This document shows positions 22,754-33,696 of a DNA stretch of 43,633 nucleotides, piece after piece. Numbering within the stretch: the first letter of the stretch is position 1; each line of letters begins with the position of its first letter. The stretch is from Phycisphaerae bacterium (GTDB lineage: Bacteria; Planctomycetota; Phycisphaerae; Sedimentisphaerales; Anaerohalosphaeraceae), in assembly GCA_018052735.1 (NCBI GenBank), contig JAGPMT010000025.1, forward strand, positions 1 through 43,633. The letters are read 5' to 3'. A program made the translations under genes and the position numbers. The notes under the pieces were generated by a model. The model ran no database searches and was not told the origin of the DNA. It was given only the letters and a program-made list of their open reading frames with translations.

Positions 22754-23071
22754 ATGCAGTATTTATATGAAAAACAAGCTGCGATTGCCAAGGCAATTGC
22801 CCATCCAGTGCGGGTGGCGGTACTGGATTTTCTCCGTACTGGCGAACAATGCGTTTGTGACATCGCTGCGGCAGTCGGTTCCGAACGAACAAACCTTTCC
22901 AAACATCTGTCGGTGATGGTGGCGGCTGGCGTGCTCGAATCCCGAAAGGATGGGCTAAAGGTGATGTATCGCATCAAGACACCTTGTGTACTGCGGTTTC
23001 TCGAATGTCTGACAGGGTGCCTGCGGGAACAGGCGGCCGAGCAGAGGAAATTTCTGGAAGCCATACATTAA
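22754..23071 (+). CDS. arsR: ArsR/SmtB family metalloregulator
   Basis: 105 residues from the ATG at 22754. Winged helix with HPVRVAVLDFLRTGEQCVCD and TNLSKHLSVMVAAGVLESRK; the CVC pair (Cys33, Cys35) in the ELCVCDL position is the known alpha-3 As(III) or soft-metal site. Extra cysteines near the C-terminus (TPCVL, CLTGC) could add ligands. It is expected to repress the operon of the permease and thioredoxin genes that starts 32 bases downstream and to release DNA on metal(loid) binding. A TTG five codons upstream is possible but lies without a ribosome site. Confidence 0.92.
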   Translation: MQYLYEKQAAIAKAIAHPVRVAVLDFLRTGEQCVCDIAAAVGSERTNLSKHLSVMVAAGVLESRKDGLKVMYRIKTPCVLRFLECLTGCLREQAAEQRKFLEAIH

Positions 23072-23103
23072 CAGCATACTTAATCAATAAGCTGAGGACT
23101 CTT

Positions 23104-24435
23104 ATGAATCTCAAGGCGGAATGGAAAAAGCTGGCATGGATTATCAGTGTTTTTTTGCTGTGTTTTTATCTGCCGGTGGGTGTGGGGCGTTTTGATAATG
23201 CCGTCAGTGAAGCCCTGTCGCTGACCAAATGGTATGCACGGGAGCATGTGCTGCTCTGTCTGGTTCCGGCGTTTTTTATCGCCGGAGCGATTGGTGTTTT
23301 TGTCAGTCAAGGTTCGGTGATGAAATATTTAGGCCCCAAGGCCAACAAGGTTTTGGCCTATGGTGTGGCATCGGTCTCGGGGACAATATTGGCTGTCTGT
23401 TCCTGTACGGTGCTGCCGCTGTTTGCGGGCATCTACCGCATGGGTGCGGGTTTAGGACCGGCGGTGGCTTTTTTGTATTCAGGACCGGCGATTAATATTC
23501 TGGCGATTATTATGACAGCCCGCATTCTTGGAATGGAAATGGGTATAGCCCGTGCGGTGGGGGCGATTCTGTTCAGCATTGTAATTGGGGTATTGATGCA
23601 TCTGATTTATCGTAAAGAGGAAATCGCCAAGGCCGAGGCGGCGATGGCTGTGCCGCAGGCCGCATCCAGCCGGCCTTTGTGGAAAAATGCGGTTTTTTTT
23701 GCGGCAATGGTGCTGATTCTTGTGGCGGCCAATTGGGCACGAAGCGGCGATGTACGGGCTTTCTTTTTATGCTGCCCCGGCGGCTTGCAGACCTACGCCG
23801 TGGAGGGCAAGCTTCTTGAACAAACGGATACAACGGTAACGGTAGTGGACAATACAGGCACAAAACACGTGATTCCTGTTGACCAGTTTAAAGGTGTTGA
23901 GCCGATTAAGAAAAATCCGGTCTATGAATGGATATCTCAGGCCCGTTGGGGCATTGTTGCCGCGGCAGGGGTGCTTCTGGCGGCTATGTGCATCTTCTGG
24001 TTTACCAAGCCGGAACTGATTGAGTGGGTTGATGCCTCTTGGACTTTTGCCAAGCAGATTCTGCCCCTTCTGCTGATAGGTGTGCTGGCGGCGGGATTTT
24101 TCCTTGGTCGGCCGGGCAAGGAAGGAATTATTCCGAATATCTGGGTAGAAAAGGCTTTGGGCGGCAATGGCCTTGGCGCTAATCTTTTTGCGGCGGTGGC
24201 GGGAGCATTTATGTATTTTGCCACCTTGACAGAAGTGCCGATTCTTCAGGGGCTGATGGGATCCGGCATGGGCAAGGGACCGGCATTGGCGCTGCTGCTG
24301 GCAGGACCTGCCCTGTCGCTGCCCAATATGCTTGTTATCCGCTCAATAATGGGCACACAGAAAACAGTTGTGTATGTGCTGCTGGTGATTGTGATGGCAG
24401 CGATTTCGGGAATGCTCTTCGGGGCGTTTTTCTAA
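23104..24435 (+). CDS. ArsP_1/DUF318 family permease
   Basis: 443 residues, about 10 membrane segments in two halves. Signature: SGTILAVCSCTVLPLFAGIY, GLGPAVAFLYSGPAINILAI and, in the second half, FATLTEVPILQGLMGSGM. The Cys pair in CSCT is conserved in the family. Members include ArsP, which exports trivalent organoarsenicals, and SO_0444-type copper/zinc efflux proteins; the substrate here is unknown. A soluble insert of about 60 residues (around 225-285, with FFLCCPGGLQTYAVEG) lies between the halves. AGGA sits 6 bases before the ATG at 23104; an earlier in-frame start would lie inside arsR and is rejected. Confidence 0.88.
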   Translation: MNLKAEWKKLAWIISVFLLCFYLPVGVGRFDNAVSEALSLTKWYAREHVLLCLVPAFFIAGAIGVFVSQGSVMKYLGPKANKVLAYGVASVSGTILAVCSCTVLPLFAGIYRMGAGLGPAVAFLYSGPAINILAIIMTARILGMEMGIARAVGAILFSIVIGVLMHLIYRKEEIAKAEAAMAVPQAASSRPLWKNAVFFAAMVLILVAANWARSGDVRAFFLCCPGGLQTYAVEGKLLEQTDTTVTVVDNTGTKHVIPVDQFKGVEPIKKNPVYEWISQARWGIVAAAGVLLAAMCIFWFTKPELIEWVDASWTFAKQILPLLLIGVLAAGFFLGRPGKEGIIPNIWVEKALGGNGLGANLFAAVAGAFMYFATLTEVPILQGLMGSGMGKGPALALLLAGPALSLPNMLVIRSIMGTQKTVVYVLLVIVMAAISGMLFGAFF

Positions 24436-24445
24436 AGGAAAAAAA

Positions 24446-24952
24446 ATGGCAGATAAGGCCGATGAATTTACTGTCAAGGCGATAGGCATTATTCGGACAC
24501 CTTTTAAGCATCCGCAGGAGGCTCCGATTCAGCCGGCGTTTGCCAAAGGTGCCGAAGGTGTCGTTGACATATTCGAGCCGTATGAGGCCGCACTGAAAGA
24601 TTTGGACGGCTTTGAGCGGATTTGGCTGATTTATTATTGCCACCGGGCGGCCGAGTGGAAACCGCTGTCCAAGCCCTATCTGGATACAGTTGAGCGGGGA
24701 CTGTTTGCTACACGGGCGCCGGCCAGACCGAATCCCATCGGCATATCATCGGTGCGATTGGTGCGGATCGAAGGCCGCCGGCTGTATGTCCGGGATATTG
24801 ATGCACTGGACGAGACGCCGCTGCTGGATATTAAACCCTATTCAGGCAGATTTGATGTTTTTGAGACCAAGTATAACGGCTGGATGGATGCGGTCGATAC
24901 GAGCAATCCGAAGGCCGATGGACGTTTTTGGAAACCGCAGACAAGTGAATAA
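24446..24952 (+). CDS. trmO: TrmO/TsaA-like tRNA (t6A37) N6-methyltransferase
   Basis: 168 residues. Motifs: AIGIIRTPFK, LDGFERIWLIYYCHRA and FATRAPARPNPIGIS, which form the SAM-binding beta-barrel of the TrmO/VirR family, followed by LLDIKPYSGRFDVFE. In E. coli TrmO methylates the N6 of t6A37 in threonine tRNA. Here the gene sits 10 bases after the permease in an ArsR-led operon, an unexpected place for a tRNA enzyme; similar single-domain TsaA proteins might methylate another substrate. Cytoplasmic. Confidence 0.88.
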   Translation: MADKADEFTVKAIGIIRTPFKHPQEAPIQPAFAKGAEGVVDIFEPYEAALKDLDGFERIWLIYYCHRAAEWKPLSKPYLDTVERGLFATRAPARPNPIGISSVRLVRIEGRRLYVRDIDALDETPLLDIKPYSGRFDVFETKYNGWMDAVDTSNPKADGRFWKPQTSE

Positions 24953-25613: not shown

Positions 25614-27092
25614 ATGGAACCTCTGCCAATTGACAAGACAGTTCAATGTCCCTGTGACAGCGGCGGGGCGCATCCCTTTTTGCTTCTGGTAATCTTTGCA
25701 GGAGCATGGTTGTTGTTTTACTGCATAAAAATGCTGATTAGGTCCAAGGGAGTATTGCCGATGAATAAAATGCATAAAATAATGATTGTAATGGCGCTGG
25801 CGGTTCTGGTTGGGGTTGTCATTGTCATGAAACAGCAGGAGCCCCAAAGCCCTGCTTTGCAGAATACCTCGACACAGCAAGCTCAAACAGCCGTATCTGA
25901 ATTACCGGTAGAAAACAAGGCTGCTTCTCCGATGCCGGCAGCAAAGCCCGGTACGCTGCCGATGCTGCTGGATTTGGGGGCTGACAAGTGCGTTCCCTGC
26001 AAGATGATGGCGCCGATTCTGGAGGCATTGAAAAAGGAATATGAGGGCAAACTCCATGTGGTATTTATCGATGTGTGGGACAATCCCAATGAGGCCTCAC
26101 GATACGGCATTCGACTGATTCCTACGCAGATTTTCTATGATGCCGGCGGGCGGGAGCTGTTTCGACACGAGGGGTTTATCTCTAAAGAAGATATTCTGAC
26201 CAAGTGGAAAGAGCTGGGCGTGAATTTGGCAGATGCCGGGGGTATGCCGCCGGCATTTGAGCGGCTTGTGCCGGCCCGGGCGGATACGCGGCCCAAAGAA
26301 CAGATTTGCTATATGTGTGACGGGGATATTTCACCCCAAACGCTGGTGACGGTTAAAACTGACAAGGGCGATGTGCGGCTATGCGGGCTGCACTGCTATT
26401 TTATTATGTACTCCTGCTTAATGGAAGACAAGACGGATTTTGAAAACAAAGTGACGGTTTCGGATTTTGAATCCGGCAGGCCGGTGCCGCTGACCGAAGC
26501 CGTCTTTCTGGCAGGAACCGATGCCAAAGGCCGTCCGATGCTGCGGGCTTATGCAAATGCTGATGCGGCCAATCAGGCCCGCCAGACCGACGGGGGCAAT
26601 GTGATTGGTTTGCAGGCGCTTCGGCAGAATGAACTGTCCTGCCGATGCGGATTCTGCGACCGTGCGTGCTATCCGCAGGACGCCGCCGAGGTGATTGTTG
26701 AAGGCGGACTGCGCACGTGGGGCTGCTGCTCGCATTGTGCGCTGGGGGTAGCTGCCCGAACGGGCAAGGATATTGAAATTCACGAAAAAGACAGACTGAC
26801 TGGTGAGCCGATTATTGTCAAAACGCTCAACGGCAGCATCCTGTCGCTGGATCCGCCTACAGCAGTGGCGTGGTTCGGGCAGCGTCAGAAACCCGACGGA
26901 TCCTGGACCTCTGCCGGCTGCTTTCATCAGGGATTTTTTGTCAATCCGGATAATCTGATAAAATGGGTCGAACAGAATCCCTATGAAACCGGCAGACTTA
27001 TCAGCATTCATCAGGCGCTGGCCGATAAGATGAAGCTGTCGCCGGAACAGATACAGAAGGCCTGCAAAATCGGTGAATGTACGCCGAAATAG
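25614..27092 (+). CDS. Membrane-anchored thioredoxin with C-terminal multi-cysteine domain
   Basis: 492 residues. Hydrophobic segments lie at 20-42 and 55-72. The thioredoxin fold at about 112-215 has CVPC (126-129) and the cis-Pro in RLIPTQIF (Pro170). Behind it is a region of about 275 residues with paired cysteines: CYMC (232-235), CGLHC (257-261), CRCGFCDRAC (343-352), CCSHC (371-375), then Cys436, 484 and 489. I do not recognise this part; it looks like a metal-binding or disulfide-exchange domain on the outer face. Two starts are possible: ATG at 25614, filling the gap after the DGC gene, or ATG at 25761, which has AAGGGAG 8 bases before it and leaves one membrane anchor. CcdA follows directly, suggesting electron supply from the cytoplasm. 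Confidence 0.8.
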   Translation: MEPLPIDKTVQCPCDSGGAHPFLLLVIFAGAWLLFYCIKMLIRSKGVLPMNKMHKIMIVMALAVLVGVVIVMKQQEPQSPALQNTSTQQAQTAVSELPVENKAASPMPAAKPGTLPMLLDLGADKCVPCKMMAPILEALKKEYEGKLHVVFIDVWDNPNEASRYGIRLIPTQIFYDAGGRELFRHEGFISKEDILTKWKELGVNLADAGGMPPAFERLVPARADTRPKEQICYMCDGDISPQTLVTVKTDKGDVRLCGLHCYFIMYSCLMEDKTDFENKVTVSDFESGRPVPLTEAVFLAGTDAKGRPMLRAYANADAANQARQTDGGNVIGLQALRQNELSCRCGFCDRACYPQDAAEVIVEGGLRTWGCCSHCALGVAARTGKDIEIHEKDRLTGEPIIVKTLNGSILSLDPPTAVAWFGQRQKPDGSWTSAGCFHQGFFVNPDNLIKWVEQNPYETGRLISIHQALADKMKLSPEQIQKACKIGECTPK

Positions 27093-27968: not shown

Positions 27969-28035
27969 ATTGACTCACAACGCCCCGCAGGAAACAATAA
28001 CACGAACAGTATTACCCAAATGCCGGAGATTAAGG

Positions 28036-28413
28036 ATGTTGCAGAAATTGATATGGCTGGGTCTTGCCGGGGCAGCCGGAACATTGACACGCTATTGGCT
28101 GTCAGGGCTGGTCCAAAAAAATGTTTCGGTTGATTTTCCAATCGGAACAATGACGGTAAACATTGTTGGCTGTCTGCTGTTTGGTCTGCTGTGGGCTTTT
28201 ATCGAGAGCCGGCTGTCTATCAGCGGCCAAATGCGCACAATTATTTTTCTGGGATTTTTCGGGGCCTTTACTACATTTTCATCATTTGCTTTTGAAACCA
28301 GTCAGCTGTTGGATGAATCGCAATGGCTGTGGGCAGCGGGCAATATCCTGCTGCAGAACATTCTGTGCCTTGCCGGTATGATTACCGGCTTGACGGTTGG
28401 CAGGTGGATTTAA
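28036..28413 (+). CDS. crcB: Fluoride exporter CrcB/Fluc
   Basis: 125 residues, four membrane segments. Family strings: GLAGAAGTLTRYWLSG, FPIGTMTVNIVGCLLFG and GFFGAFTTFSSFAFE; the TTFS track phenylalanines line the fluoride pore. It works as a dual-topology dimeric F- channel. GGAG lies 7 bases before the ATG at 28036, which is preferred to upstream in-frame codons inside the riboswitch. Controlled by the fluoride riboswitch immediately upstream. Confidence 0.96.
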   Translation: MLQKLIWLGLAGAAGTLTRYWLSGLVQKNVSVDFPIGTMTVNIVGCLLFGLLWAFIESRLSISGQMRTIIFLGFFGAFTTFSSFAFETSQLLDESQWLWAAGNILLQNILCLAGMITGLTVGRWI

Positions 28414-28433
28414 TCTTAAAAAGGAGACCGGTT

Positions 28434-28778
28434 ATGCAATTGCCCTCGGAAGCACAACTGCTGCGAATCTTTATCGGAGAAGCGGACCGTTTCGGCGGGA
28501 AACCGCTGTATGAAGCGATTGTTCATCTGGCCCGCCAGAAGGGCATGGCCGGGGCTACAGTAGTAAGAGGGCTGATGGGTTTCGGTGCGCACAGCCGTAT
28601 GCACACAGCCAAAATTCTTCGCCTCTCGGAAGACCTGCCGATAGTTATTGAGATTGTCGATAAGCCCGAACGGATTAAAGATCTTCTTGCCGAACTGGAT
28701 GGGATGATAAAAGAGGGACTGGTGACGCTGGAAAAAGTGACCGTATTTGCCTACCGCTGCGAAAATGGGAATCGATAA
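28434..28778 (+). CDS. DUF190 family protein, fluoride-operon partner
   Basis: 114 residues. The pattern LLRIFIGEADRFGGKPLYEA, ARQKGMAGATVVRGLMGFG and LSEDLPIVIEIVDKPERI is DUF190, a PII-like (GlnB-fold) small cytoplasmic protein almost always found next to crcB. AGGAG lies 8 bases before the ATG, 20 bases after crcB. Its biochemical role is not established; a regulatory subunit for the channel is plausible. Confidence 0.93.
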   Translation: MQLPSEAQLLRIFIGEADRFGGKPLYEAIVHLARQKGMAGATVVRGLMGFGAHSRMHTAKILRLSEDLPIVIEIVDKPERIKDLLAELDGMIKEGLVTLEKVTVFAYRCENGNR

Positions 28779-30216: not shown

Positions 30217-31401
30217 CTATGGCCTTACGGAGCGGCTAAACCAGTTCTGTGTGCGGAGGCAGATTTTAACCAGCATCAGCATCACGGGCACTTCAATCAA
30301 GACGCCGACGACGGTTGCCAAAGCCGCTCCCGATTGAAGGCCGAACAGCATCGTGGCTGTAGCAATTGCGACCTCAAAATGGTTGGATGCCCCAATCATG
30401 GCCGAGGGAGCGGCATCCGGATAAGACAGGTTCAGCATTTTGGACAATCCATACCCAATTGCAAAAATCAGACAGGTCTGAATAAACAATGGAATTGCAA
30501 TCCACAGAATGGTCAGAGGATTATTCAAAATTGTTTGGCCTTTGAAGGAGAACAGCAGCACCAGCGTCAGCAGCAGGGCAAGAATAGTAATCGGCGTCAG
30601 GATGTGCAGAAATTTCTGCTCAAACCAATCAGCCCCTTTATGAGCAAGGATCCATTTTCGGGAAATAAAACCGGCCGCAAGGGGCAGCGCGACATAAATG
30701 GCGATGGACAATAATAAGGCCTGCCACGGCACCGGCAGTTTGCCGACCCCCAGAAGAAAACCCCCCAGCGGCCCATAAAGAAGCAGCATTGTCAATGAAT
30801 TAATGGCCACCATTACCAGCGTATGCCCGTCATTGCCTTTGGCCAGATACCCCCAGACCAGCACCATTGCCGTACACGGTGCGATGCCAAGCAGGATGCA
30901 GCCGGCTAAATAACTTCTCCAAAGCGGAACTTGCAGCATTTTGACGCCGTTTTTCAGTACGATTGTGCCGACGCCGTATTCTGCGCCTACCGGCAGATCC
31001 AGCCCCAACGGCATCTTGACCCAATCGACAGCATTCGGGCCGATAAACTGATAAAACAAAGTACCGAGGAAAAACAACGCTATCGCATACATGGTAAAGG
31101 GTTTGATTGCCCAGTTGATAAACAGCGTCAGTCCTACCGGCTTGATGCTTTTGCCGGCTTTAAGGACTTCGGCAAAGTCAATCTTGACCATGATCGGATA
31201 CATCATCAAAAACAGACAGGCCGCTATGGGAATGGAGACTACAGGTGCCCCATTGACATAGATGGCCATGCCATCCAGAGATGCGGCCAAGCCCGGTGCC
31301 AGCTTGCCCATCACAATACCTCCCAGAATGCACAAAATAATCCAGACGGTAAGATACTTTTCAAATATGTTCAGCCCTTTTGCTGCTTGCGGATTAGACA
31401 T
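30217..31401 (-). CDS. acr3: Arsenite efflux transporter Acr3
   Basis: 394 residues, ten membrane segments. The conserved Cys176 in [12 protein letters not shown] and Glu343 in [11 protein letters not shown] are present; their spacing of 167 residues equals that of the functional Cys/Glu pair known in bacterial Acr3. [11 protein letters not shown] and [11 protein letters not shown] are typical N-terminal strings. An extra loop (about 120-150, [20 protein letters not shown]) is longer than in short members. It exports As(III) driven by the membrane potential or proton gradient. Last gene of the minus-strand arsenic operon, 2 bases after arsM. Confidence 0.96.
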
Positions 31402-31403
31402 TG

Positions 31404-32450
31404 CTACTCCTTGTTATGGTGCGGTATCTCTTTTTCCAGCAGTTCATCCATTTGCCTTGCGGCTCCTGTCCGGACCATTTTGCCGATATGAACGGCCTGC
31501 TGTATTTCTGTATGCCCAAGGCCCATCTGCTGTGCTTTGTTCGTGTGGAATATGACACACGGATGACAGTTGCACGCCACTGATGCGCCGAGGGCAATCA
31601 GTTCCTTGGTGGCGCTGCTGACAGTTGCCGAATGGTCCTTATACGCGATAAAATCTGCGCTGACAATGTAATCGCTGAGTTTCTTATCTGCCGGCAGATG
31701 TTGGCGAATCGACTGATACAAAGAATCATTGCAGCTGGCCATCCTATCCATGTTAGATGGTTTTACAGCAACCTGCGGATGAACCAGACCCGCCGCAGCA
31801 ATCATCGTCTGCGTCTGCTCGATCAGAACTGCTCCCGCCACACAGCCGATAAGGGCAGCGATTGACTCCTGAACCTTTTGAGGCAACGGATTGGTCAGTG
31901 CCAAATCGGAGATGCAGGCCTTGCCGCCGGGTTTCAAAACACGGGCAATTTCCTTCCAGACCTGCTGCTTGTCCGGTGAGAGATTAACGACGCAGTTGGA
32001 AATAACCACATCGACCGAGGCATCCGCTGCCGGCAGATGCTCAATTTCCCCCAGACGAAATTCCACATTGGATAGCCCCGTCTTTTCTGCAAAGGCTTCA
32101 ATGCCCGCCCTCGCTTTGCTGACCATCTCGGCAGTCATGTCGACGCCGATAACATAGCCTGTCGGACCGACTTTGCTGGCGGCGATAAACACATCCAGTC
32201 CGCCGCCGCTGCCCAAATCCAAGACAACCTGACCGGGCTTAAGGTCGGCGATAGCCGTCGGATTGCCGCAGGAAAGCCCCATATTAGCGCCCTGCGGCAC
32301 TATGTCCAATTCCTCCCGGCGATAGCCGATGCCCTCAGCCAGCTTGTTCGGCTCTGCTGAACCGCAGCAGCAGCCCGATTGACCTCGGGCAATATCGGCA
32401 TACCCCAGACGCACTGCATCTCTGATTTTATTATTTCCCTTGCCAGTCAT
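31404..32450 (-). CDS. arsM: Arsenite S-adenosylmethyltransferase ArsM with C-terminal AhpD/CMD-like domain
   Basis: 348 residues. SAM motif [10 protein letters not shown] (77-86) and the three As(III)-binding cysteines Cys61 (MGLSCGNP), Cys153 (ISNCVVNL) and Cys203 (LIGCVAGA). An N-terminal CCCG (27-30) could be an extra binding site. Residues about 278-340 form a second domain of the carboxymuconolactone decarboxylase/AhpD kind with Cys295-x2-Cys298-x3-His302, the AhpD redox motif. ArsM methylates As(III) and needs thiol reduction of its cysteines; a fused disulfide-reducing domain would fit that need, though this is inference. 14 bases after arsC, 2 before acr3. Confidence 0.95.
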
Positions 32451-32464
32451 AAAAACTCCCTATT

Positions 32465-32911
32465 CTAATCCGTTTTGTCTGGATAGTTGTGCATTGTCAG
32501 CCAATTCTGAACGCGCTGCTTAACTGCATCGCGCGTCTGGCGAAAGGCGTCCACTACCTCTTCCTTTGGACCGGTTTTCTTTGCCGGGTCTGCCAAAGGC
32601 CACCGTTCGGTATGCAGTGCCAAAGGCATCAGCTGGGGGCATTCCGCCTCCCCCTCCTGACAAACGATAATAACCCAATCCAGCAGTTCTTTACCCAGAT
32701 ACAAGTCGATGCTTTTGGCAGTCTGACCGGCAATATCAATGCCGTCTTCCTGCATGACAAGATAAACCAGCGGATGAATCATCTGGGGATAAAGGCCGGC
32801 GCTGATGGCCTCAAATTGATCCGGCGCCAGTTTCTTCAAATAGGCCTCGGCCATCTGGCTGCGGCAGGAATTGTGCTTGCAAAAAAATAACACGCGCTGT
32901 TTTAGTTTCAT
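32465..32911 (-). CDS. arsC: Arsenate reductase ArsC, thioredoxin-coupled (LMW phosphatase type)
   Basis: 148 residues. The P-loop is CKHNSCRSQMAE with nucleophile Cys11 and Arg17; the resolving pair is Cys84 and Cys91 (IIVCQEGEAECP), 7 apart as in the Bacillus/Staphylococcus enzyme. The usual CTGNSCRS loop is changed to CKHNSCRS. It reduces arsenate to arsenite with electrons from thioredoxin. Start overlaps the stop of the ArsR-ArsC fusion by 4 bases (ATGA), so translation is coupled. It is the second ArsC-like domain in this operon. Confidence 0.92.
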   Translation of the reverse strand: MKLKQRVLFFCKHNSCRSQMAEAYLKKLAPDQFEAISAGLYPQMIHPLVYLVMQEDGIDIAGQTAKSIDLYLGKELLDWVIIVCQEGEAECPQLMPLALHTERWPLADPAKKTGPKEEVVDAFRQTRDAVKQRVQNWLTMHNYPDKTD

Positions 32912-33696
32912 AAGCCGCTCCTTTGATCGGTTAACGCTTCCGGCAGAGTCTCAATGAACTGTCTAATTTCATCCCGTATGCGGCGATAGCAGTTCAGTGC
33001 GTCCTCTTCTGTTTTTGCATCTTTTGCCAGTCGCGGGGGATCTTCAAAATTGATATGGATACTTTTTGCCTTGCCGGAGAACAGCGGACAGCTTTCCCGT
33101 GCATTATCACAGACGGTAATTACATAATCGAAATCTATTTCCGCTAATTCATTTAGATGTTTAGAGCGATGTTGTGAAATATCCACTCCTGCCTCTGCCA
33201 TTACTTTGACAGCGCAGGGATTCAATCCGTGTGTTTCAATCCCGGCTGAATACGGTTCAAGTATGTCCCCTTTTAAGTGTCTGGCCCACCCCTCGGCCAT
33301 CTGACTCCGACAGGAATTGCCCGTACATAAAAAGAGGATTTTCAGTTTATTCTTCCCCTTCTGCGGCACTCTGCAGTTGGATTCCCCCAGCCGTTTGAGA
33401 TCTTGCTGTGCTTGCGGATGGTCTTTTAAATAATCGCGAAAGAAATTGTGCAGGGATTGCTCAAACATTGTTGCTGCAGGGGATAATCGGTAGTGCATCC
33501 AAGTCCCTTGACGCTGCGCGGTAACCAATCTTGCCTTGCGAAGCTCACCCAAATGCCGCGATATCTTAAACTGCGGTTCATTAAGCGCATCGACAAGCTG
33601 GCATACACACAACTGGCCGCTTTGTGCCAGCAGTGTCATCAACCGAAGCCGAATGGGATCGGCAAGAACCTTCAAAATGGCCGCTTCTTGTTTCAT
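32908..33696 (-). CDS. ArsR-ArsC fusion: arsenic repressor joined to arsenate reductase
   Basis: 262 residues. Residues 1-95 are an ArsR winged helix (LADPIRLRLMTLLAQSGQLC, CVC at Cys30/Cys32, PQFKISRHLGELRKARLV). A linker of about 20 residues leads to an ArsC domain at 118-250 with CTGNSCRSQMAEGWARHL (Cys124), Cys196 and Cys203. The reductase makes the As(III) that the attached repressor would sense, so local product could relieve repression. AAGGAG precedes the ATG at 33696. First gene of the arsenic operon; the operator palindrome lies 16 bases upstream. Confidence 0.94.
   Translation of the reverse strand: MKQEAAILKVLADPIRLRLMTLLAQSGQLCVCQLVDALNEPQFKISRHLGELRKARLVTAQRQGTWMHYRLSPAATMFEQSLHNFFRDYLKDHPQAQQDLKRLGESNCRVPQKGKNKLKILFLCTGNSCRSQMAEGWARHLKGDILEPYSAGIETHGLNPCAVKVMAEAGVDISQHRSKHLNELAEIDFDYVITVCDNARESCPLFSGKAKSIHINFEDPPRLAKDAKTEEDALNCYRRIRDEIRQFIETLPEALTDQRSGL

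Follow-up and report, generated by a model that had tools for sequence, protein, structure and literature searches.

A small CMD/AhpD-like domain fused to an arsenite methyltransferase belongs to a subfamily associated with arsenic gene clusters

The window, by which we mean the whole stretch of 43,633 nucleotides analyzed (positions 1 to 43,633 of contig JAGPMT010000025.1 of a Phycisphaerae bacterium), contains a run of four minus-strand genes for arsenic handling. In transcriptional order these encode an ArsR–ArsC fusion, a second ArsC-like protein, an arsenite methyltransferase (ArsM) joined to a CMD/AhpD-like domain, and Acr3; the first two genes overlap by 4 bases, and the gaps that follow are 14 and 2 bases long. 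Convergent to this run, the plus strand carries genes for an ArsP permease, a TrmO-like protein, a thioredoxin–MerB-like protein, a DsbD-like protein, CrcB, a DUF190 protein, and an MFS transporter. TIGR02691, the model of the thioredoxin-type reductase, was the best model for both ArsC parts among the matches listed, though neither part reached its cut-off. The second ArsC-like protein was more distant than the ArsC part of the ArsR–ArsC chain. A scan of viral contigs gave no relative, and a viral origin was rejected.

Features of the window and, in the last two rows, related fusions from other genomes (positions within the respective locus)
Feature	Position	Strand	Evidence
ArsR–ArsC fusion, first gene of the run	32908..33696	minus	TIGR02691, 146 bits, below cut-off 174.3
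Second ArsC-like LMWPc protein, 148 aa	32465..32911	minus	TIGR02691, 108.5 bits, below cut-off 174.3
ArsM–CMD fusion gene, 348 aa	31404..32450	minus	ORF; Pfam and NCBIfam matches; architecture repeated in 14 other proteins
ArsM domain, residues 1–270, with As-site Cys61/153/203 and N-terminal Cys27–29	31641..32450	minus	NF008823 above cut-off; fold match 4fr0
CMD/AhpD domain, residues 275–340	31431..31628	minus	PF02627 and TIGR00778 above cut-offs
Glu283-x11-Cys295-x2-Cys298-x3-His302 and Cys293	31545..31604	minus	Equals the E118/C130/C133/H137 pattern of M. tuberculosis AhpD
Acr3 arsenite efflux transporter	30217..31401	minus	TIGR00832, 377 bits (cut-off 282.8)
ArsP-type permease, then after 10 bases TrmO-N-like protein	22984-24952	plus	
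Thioredoxin domain joined to MerB-like (alkylmercury lyase) domain, then DsbD-like protein	25614-27092	plus	
CrcB-like protein and DUF190 protein, within the arsenic island	27970-28778	plus	
ArsM–ArsD–CMD triple fusions, Verrucomicrobiota	L018:1580-3082, L019:4998-6449, L031:5019-6470		ArsD by PF06953
ArsM–ArsD fusion without CMD, Verrucomicrobiota	L026:5001-6155		

The sequence-only reading of this DNA had described an open reading frame for ArsM with an AhpD-like tail. The frame is real and the residue numbering was correct, but the gene lies on the minus strand. A frame-shift or an assembly error as the origin of the fusion was ruled out, since the same architecture recurs in genome G025 at 68% identity and in other proteins; counting the window's own, 15 non-redundant fused proteins were found. 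Cysteines are present in the fusion protein at positions 27–29, 61, 153, 179, 203, 240, 293, 295, and 298.

Residues 1–270 are a bacterial ArsM, predicted to methylate As(III). The arsenite methyltransferase model NF008823 matched residues 6–272 (294 bits, cut-off 263), and all three As-site cysteines were present: Cys61, Cys153, and Cys203, which the sequence-only reading had singled out, aligned with the As-binding cysteines 72, 174, and 224 (CmArsM numbering) of solved algal ArsMs. A passage of PMC5552862 names cysteines 72/174/224 as the As site of CmArsM and calls them conserved. The window protein differs from bacterial ArsM in carrying an extra C-terminal domain. The AlphaFold2 model of the whole fusion protein had a pLDDT of 91.4, and the best fold match of the ArsM part in this model was CmArsM (4fr0; Z 25.0, rmsd 2.0, 221 residues aligned). 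The linker to the tail is almost absent in the model, the last ArsM strand spanning residues 262–271 and the next helix residues 273–276.

The supposed similarity of the tail to the CMD family was borne out by a domain search, in which PF02627 matched residues 275–326 (E 2.2e-9, 37.6 bits, cut-off 23) and the AhpD core model TIGR00778 scored 36 bits (cut-off 27.8). AhpD proper (TIGR00777) remained below its cut-off on the tail (17.9 against 191.95). ArsD (PF06953) was absent from the 12 Pfam families matching the window protein, and an ArsD model was found neither among the best 25 of its 45 NCBIfam matches nor among the 7 families of the tail. Modeled alone, the tail was a three-helix domain (pLDDT 91.3) with the CMD-like protein 3bey as its best solved match (Z 9.5, rmsd 2.3, 68 residues aligned); Foldseek also gave 3bey first (E 6.1e-3, prob 1.00), with no match at E 0.001, and the sequence profile of the tail matched 3bey with E 5.5e-7. 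The comparison with AhpD (1gu9) gave Z 5.8, rmsd 2.9, and 71 aligned residues. Helical bundles readily give middling Z values, and the fold match adds little beyond the sequence match. The tail shares its helical fold and the Glu-Cys-x2-Cys-x3-His pattern with M. tuberculosis AhpD, whereas the PDB chains of AhpD have 172–175 residues and the tail is one short domain of about 65. It is also similar (27 bits) to NF041047, the GSU3128 family (seleno)protein with a single CMD domain (84-position model), but far under the cut-off of 110.

The Cys295/Cys298/His302 pattern was likewise confirmed, with His302 four residues after Cys298, and to it we add Cys293, which had gone unmentioned and stands two residues ahead of the CxxC. 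The proton relay of M. tuberculosis AhpD is given in a passage of PMC3141380 as Glu118, Cys130, His132, Cys133, and His137, and His132 is said there not to be absolutely conserved. Four of these five relay residues are kept in the tail, where Pro297 takes the place of His132, and a thiol-redox role of the tail is therefore plausible. The E-x11-CxxC-x3-H pattern was present in 47 of the 50 CMD domains compared and, since these included all 11 control domains (see below), it is a family-wide pattern. One free CMD beside arsM (L108:6866-7069) has CxC instead of CxxC and one residue fewer.

The possibility exists that the domain acts as a peroxidase, or as an adaptor of AhpC, against the oxidative stress that arsenic causes. 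The AhpD-like protein PA0269 has weak peroxidase activity according to part of PMC3141380, and the tail resembles TIGR04169 (29 bits, cut-off 120), an arsenosugar biosynthesis-associated peroxidase-like protein that is also CMD-like and whose NCBI name links it to arsenic methylation chemistry. On the other hand, the gene adjoins arsC, acr3, or arsM, and AhpC, the partner of AhpD, gave no match (TIGR03137) in the window's own genome, which is 96% complete so that a missed gene is possible; the same model matched in 14 of 14 control genomes. We consider a peroxidase role very unlikely, the AhpC adaptor being disfavoured. The tail was the only PF02627 match in this genome.

A fusion of ArsM and an AhpD domain has been catalogued as NF041537, reportedly by Haft and Tolstoy in 2025; the find of the sequence-only reading is therefore not a new kind of protein. 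In the NCBIfam table of PMC13188914, NF041537 is listed as an arsenite methyltransferase/AhpD domain selenoprotein with three selenocysteines and the motifs UxxG and CxxU. The order of the domains is the same, and the model aligned over residues 4–326 of the window protein, but with a score of 195 against a cut-off of 510; moreover, the window protein has no selenocysteine, its frame being open without any UGA, and was thus ruled out as a member. It is a distant, selenocysteine-free form of the catalogued fusion. None of 21 genomes of the phylum contained a selenoprotein version above the cut-off. Cys298 stands at the CxxU place. To judge from where it stands in the table, CxxU may be the AhpD motif; selenium would then occupy the place of Cys298, which is what would be expected of a redox site. 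Selenocysteine and cysteine versions of one fusion would allow the two residues to be compared at one site.

We searched 397 genomes of the class with a profile (A1) made from 7 rows of tails and free proteins, L107, L005, and L113 being left out, and 45 genomes had a match at E 1e-10. Twenty matches, the window's own included, reached at least 60 bits, and 18 of them lay in ars surroundings: seven were fused to ArsM (G000, G025, G084, G039, G376, G384, and G031), two stood directly upstream of arsM (G033 and G022), and nine had no arsM nearby (G002, G041, G087, G095, G021, G029, G088, G413, and G005). The remaining two (G013 and G016) were outside such surroundings. Between 50 and 60 bits there were three matches, in ars surroundings in G390 and G089 and not in G154. 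Twenty-five matches scored below 50 bits; eleven of them served as controls, and none of the eleven had an ArsC, ArsM, or Acr3 homologue in its stretch (5–12.5 kb). Since the controls differ in sequence from the test set, they show no more than that the ars link is a property of the subfamily and not of CMD genes generally; several flanking stretches were short (4.1–9 kb), and the absence of an ars gene applies to the stretch alone. CMDs resembling the ars type also occurred outside ars surroundings in L104 (beside carB), L109, L150, L151, and L152. In a phylum-wide sample of 392 genomes, five of the six matches at E 1e-13, the window's included, came from the order of the window; within the phylum the subfamily is therefore mainly one of that order.

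The free copies were found beside several ars genes. In G041, a separate homologue of 67 residues (63% identity) lies between arsC and acr3, and the order arsC–CMD–acr3, with no arsM between or beside, was found in L097, L099, L100, L114, and L146, where 29–80 bases separate the arsC homology from CMD and 41–66 bases separate CMD from acr3. In L149 the three genes are ordered likewise and arsM lies on the far side of acr3; in L105 a P-type ATPase gene is placed between CMD and acr3; the arsC side alone is present in L106, and that of acr3 alone in L098 and L103. Over the loci with a separate CMD, the arsC homology ended 5–80 bases upstream (nine loci) and the acr3 homology started 41–272 bases downstream (eight loci). 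CMD adjoins ArsP and thioredoxin-like genes in L101 and L102, and ArsP, Thioredoxin_3, or DsbD-like genes are near the free CMD in L097, L101, and L103. In L004, L005, L107, and L108 the CMD gene is directly upstream of arsM, 34–36 bases from its homology. An ArsC homologue was present in 21 of 24 CMD-bearing genomes; none was found in G021, G026, and G036, of which G026 is 73% complete and the other two have CMD at a contig end. In G005, CMD is beside ArsP and acr3, and arsC is on another contig. The subfamily is linked to arsenic handling in general, i.e. to arsC, acr3, ArsP, and arsM.

The separate arsM-adjacent genes, together with the 15 fused proteins, could mean that the domain serves methylation alone. 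However, seven of the nine genomes without arsM near CMD (G002, G005, G021, G029, G041, G088, and G413; completeness 86–99%) had no ArsM at E 1e-25 and yet carry the free copy in an ars cluster; G041 among them is a single contig of 99% completeness, and in three of the seven CMD lies exactly between arsC and acr3. As for the other two, G087 has an ArsM elsewhere in the genome and G095 has ArsM matches below the cut-off only. Since free copies occur in genomes where no ArsM was found, the domain cannot exist only for methylation, and a helper of ArsM alone is, as a family-wide role, largely refuted and highly improbable. The sequence-only reading had seen in the tail a built-in reductant of ArsM, and had set against this a domain that is a separate enzyme with no link to methylation. 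The reductant remains plausible, given the CMD/AhpD identity and the relay residues, but was conceived too narrowly; the opposite picture holds in part, for the free homologue of G041 and its counterparts in the six further ArsM-less genomes. Conversely, ArsM does not need the domain as a rule: the ArsM tree has 98 rows, 77 of them with neither a fused CMD nor one in the fetched stretch (flanks of about 1.5 kb for the rows from the genome search), and G032, G035, and G037 have ArsM and no CMD match at E 1e-10.

The fused proteins comprised 12 ArsM–CMD and three ArsM–ArsD–CMD chains. L018, the one chain tested against NF033727 ('metallochaperone ArsD'), scored 120 bits (cut-off 90). Among the best 80 of 235 related loci seven were fused; the A2 rows were taken from 36 of these 80, two free CMDs, and the window, four ArsD-bearing loci being left out. 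In the ArsM tree (98 rows; a quick tree with no bootstrap) the ArsM–CMD label needed eight changes, at least six of them forced by starred branches; such counts do not separate gain from loss. The window and L083, the likewise fused protein of G025, were sisters on an unstarred branch (support 93) and could descend from a single fusion event. In the CMD tree the window's tail fell into a starred set of five (97/92) with three tails from arsM-less loci and one from beside arsM; the tail of G025 joined in a starred set of eight (99/96), and the other fused tails were outside. A single clade of all 15 fused CMD domains was rejected (p-AU 2.67e-5, on 68 columns only). The trees imply repeated joining or splitting of neighboring genes, with several separate fusions or losses.

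Such switching between the fused and unfused states could also be expected of a passive tail, acquired by neutral fusion through loss of a stop codon and devoid of any role, and the end of the ArsM frame in L010 looks like the architecture of L006 with the CMD cut out in frame and the terminal CCG stretch kept. All 15 fused domains have, however, retained the catalytic pattern, and we regard a tail without a role as extremely improbable. The window protein is without the CC(G) stretches that occur near the C-termini of several ArsM–CMD and some plain ArsM proteins (L084, L085, L006, L008, and L054).

Turnover ends with a disulfide both in this class of ArsC and in ArsM, and an outside thiol system must reduce it; for ArsM, the title of Marapakala 2015 speaks of 'A disulfide-bond cascade mechanism'. 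To our knowledge, the electron supply of both enzymes is poorly defined in bacteria beyond the model species. M. tuberculosis AhpD is described in a section of PMC3141380 as having a thioredoxin-like active site and acting as an adaptor protein, and an AhpD-like CxxC domain would therefore be a natural donor. The reading we prefer, and to which we give an even chance, is that the tail is an ars-dedicated thiol–disulfide donor for ArsC and ArsM, tethered in the window to ArsM. We infer that the CMD would pass electrons in pairs to those ars enzymes whose turnover ends with a disulfide, the recipient being ArsC where the CMD is a free gene beside arsC, and ArsM where it is beside arsM or fused to it. 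In the fusion protein, Glu283 and His302 would activate the reduced pair Cys295/Cys298, which would in turn reduce the active-site disulfide of ArsM after each methyl transfer, and the oxidized domain would be recharged by dihydrolipoamide or thioredoxin. The window's genome has a lipoamide dehydrogenase above the cut-off, and its best match for thioredoxin reductase was just below (332.3, cut-off 343.45). One donor for both enzymes would explain why arsC–CMD–acr3 occurs without arsM and why CMD can adjoin arsM or be fused to it. The gap between the ArsM and CMD homologies varied from 15 to 120 bases, and was 354–381 bases with ArsD inserted; thus, no fixed geometry is conserved, which together with the inserted ArsD argues against fixed channeling and for a tethered mobile partner. 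It counts against a donor that CMD often adjoins acr3, since Acr3 needs no electrons.

Cys293, the ArsD insertions, and the contact with acr3 make an As(III) carrier the strongest competing reading. Trivalent arsenic, taken over from ArsC, would be bound by the closely spaced thiols of Cys293, Cys295, and Cys298 and handed on to ArsM or Acr3, a duty like that of ArsD on an unrelated fold; transfer of arsenic thiolates by the tail had already been raised in the sequence-only reading. A carrier would fit the placing of CMD between arsC and acr3, whether arsM is present or not, and the three Verrucomicrobiota proteins that have ArsD between ArsM and CMD. The third cysteine, which gives C-N-C ahead of the second cysteine of CxxC, is found in exactly eight of the 50 domains, those of the starred clade that holds the window, and four of the eight come from loci without arsM. 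However, the other 42 domains are without Cys293, the Glu and the His of the redox pattern are retained, and ArsD and CMD in one chain would be unlikely to duplicate one duty. We consider the carrier rather unlikely.

Returning to the donor reading, the chances seem to us balanced that these domains of 65–95 residues represent an unnamed component of ars clusters in Planctomycetota and other bacteria of the PVC group, namely an AhpD-like, dedicated thiol partner of ArsC, ArsM, and Acr3. It would be an electron donor, possibly an As(III) carrier, joined to ArsM several times, including ArsM–ArsD–CMD chains, in which a single polypeptide combines modules for methylation, chaperoning, and redox chemistry. 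New here is the genomic context, as neither the arsM-free arsC–CMD–acr3 arrangement nor the ArsM–ArsD–CMD chains were met in the literature searched, which consisted of open-licence papers; the CMD gene in the relevant passages of PMC10304115, PMC7284689, and PMC8745256 is pcaC. If the small CMD is a dedicated donor, it is a genetically linked and separable partner of ArsM and ArsC, and with its fused, adjacent, and free versions one could test directly what holds back the methylation of arsenic and the reduction of arsenate.

The convergent genes of the island gave two minor observations. The CrcB-like protein presumably belongs to the fluoride exporter family. Long matches of the thioredoxin–MerB-like protein were also found near ars genes in L110, L111, and L112, and a role of this protein and its DsbD-like neighbor in organo-arsenical or organomercurial handling is possible.
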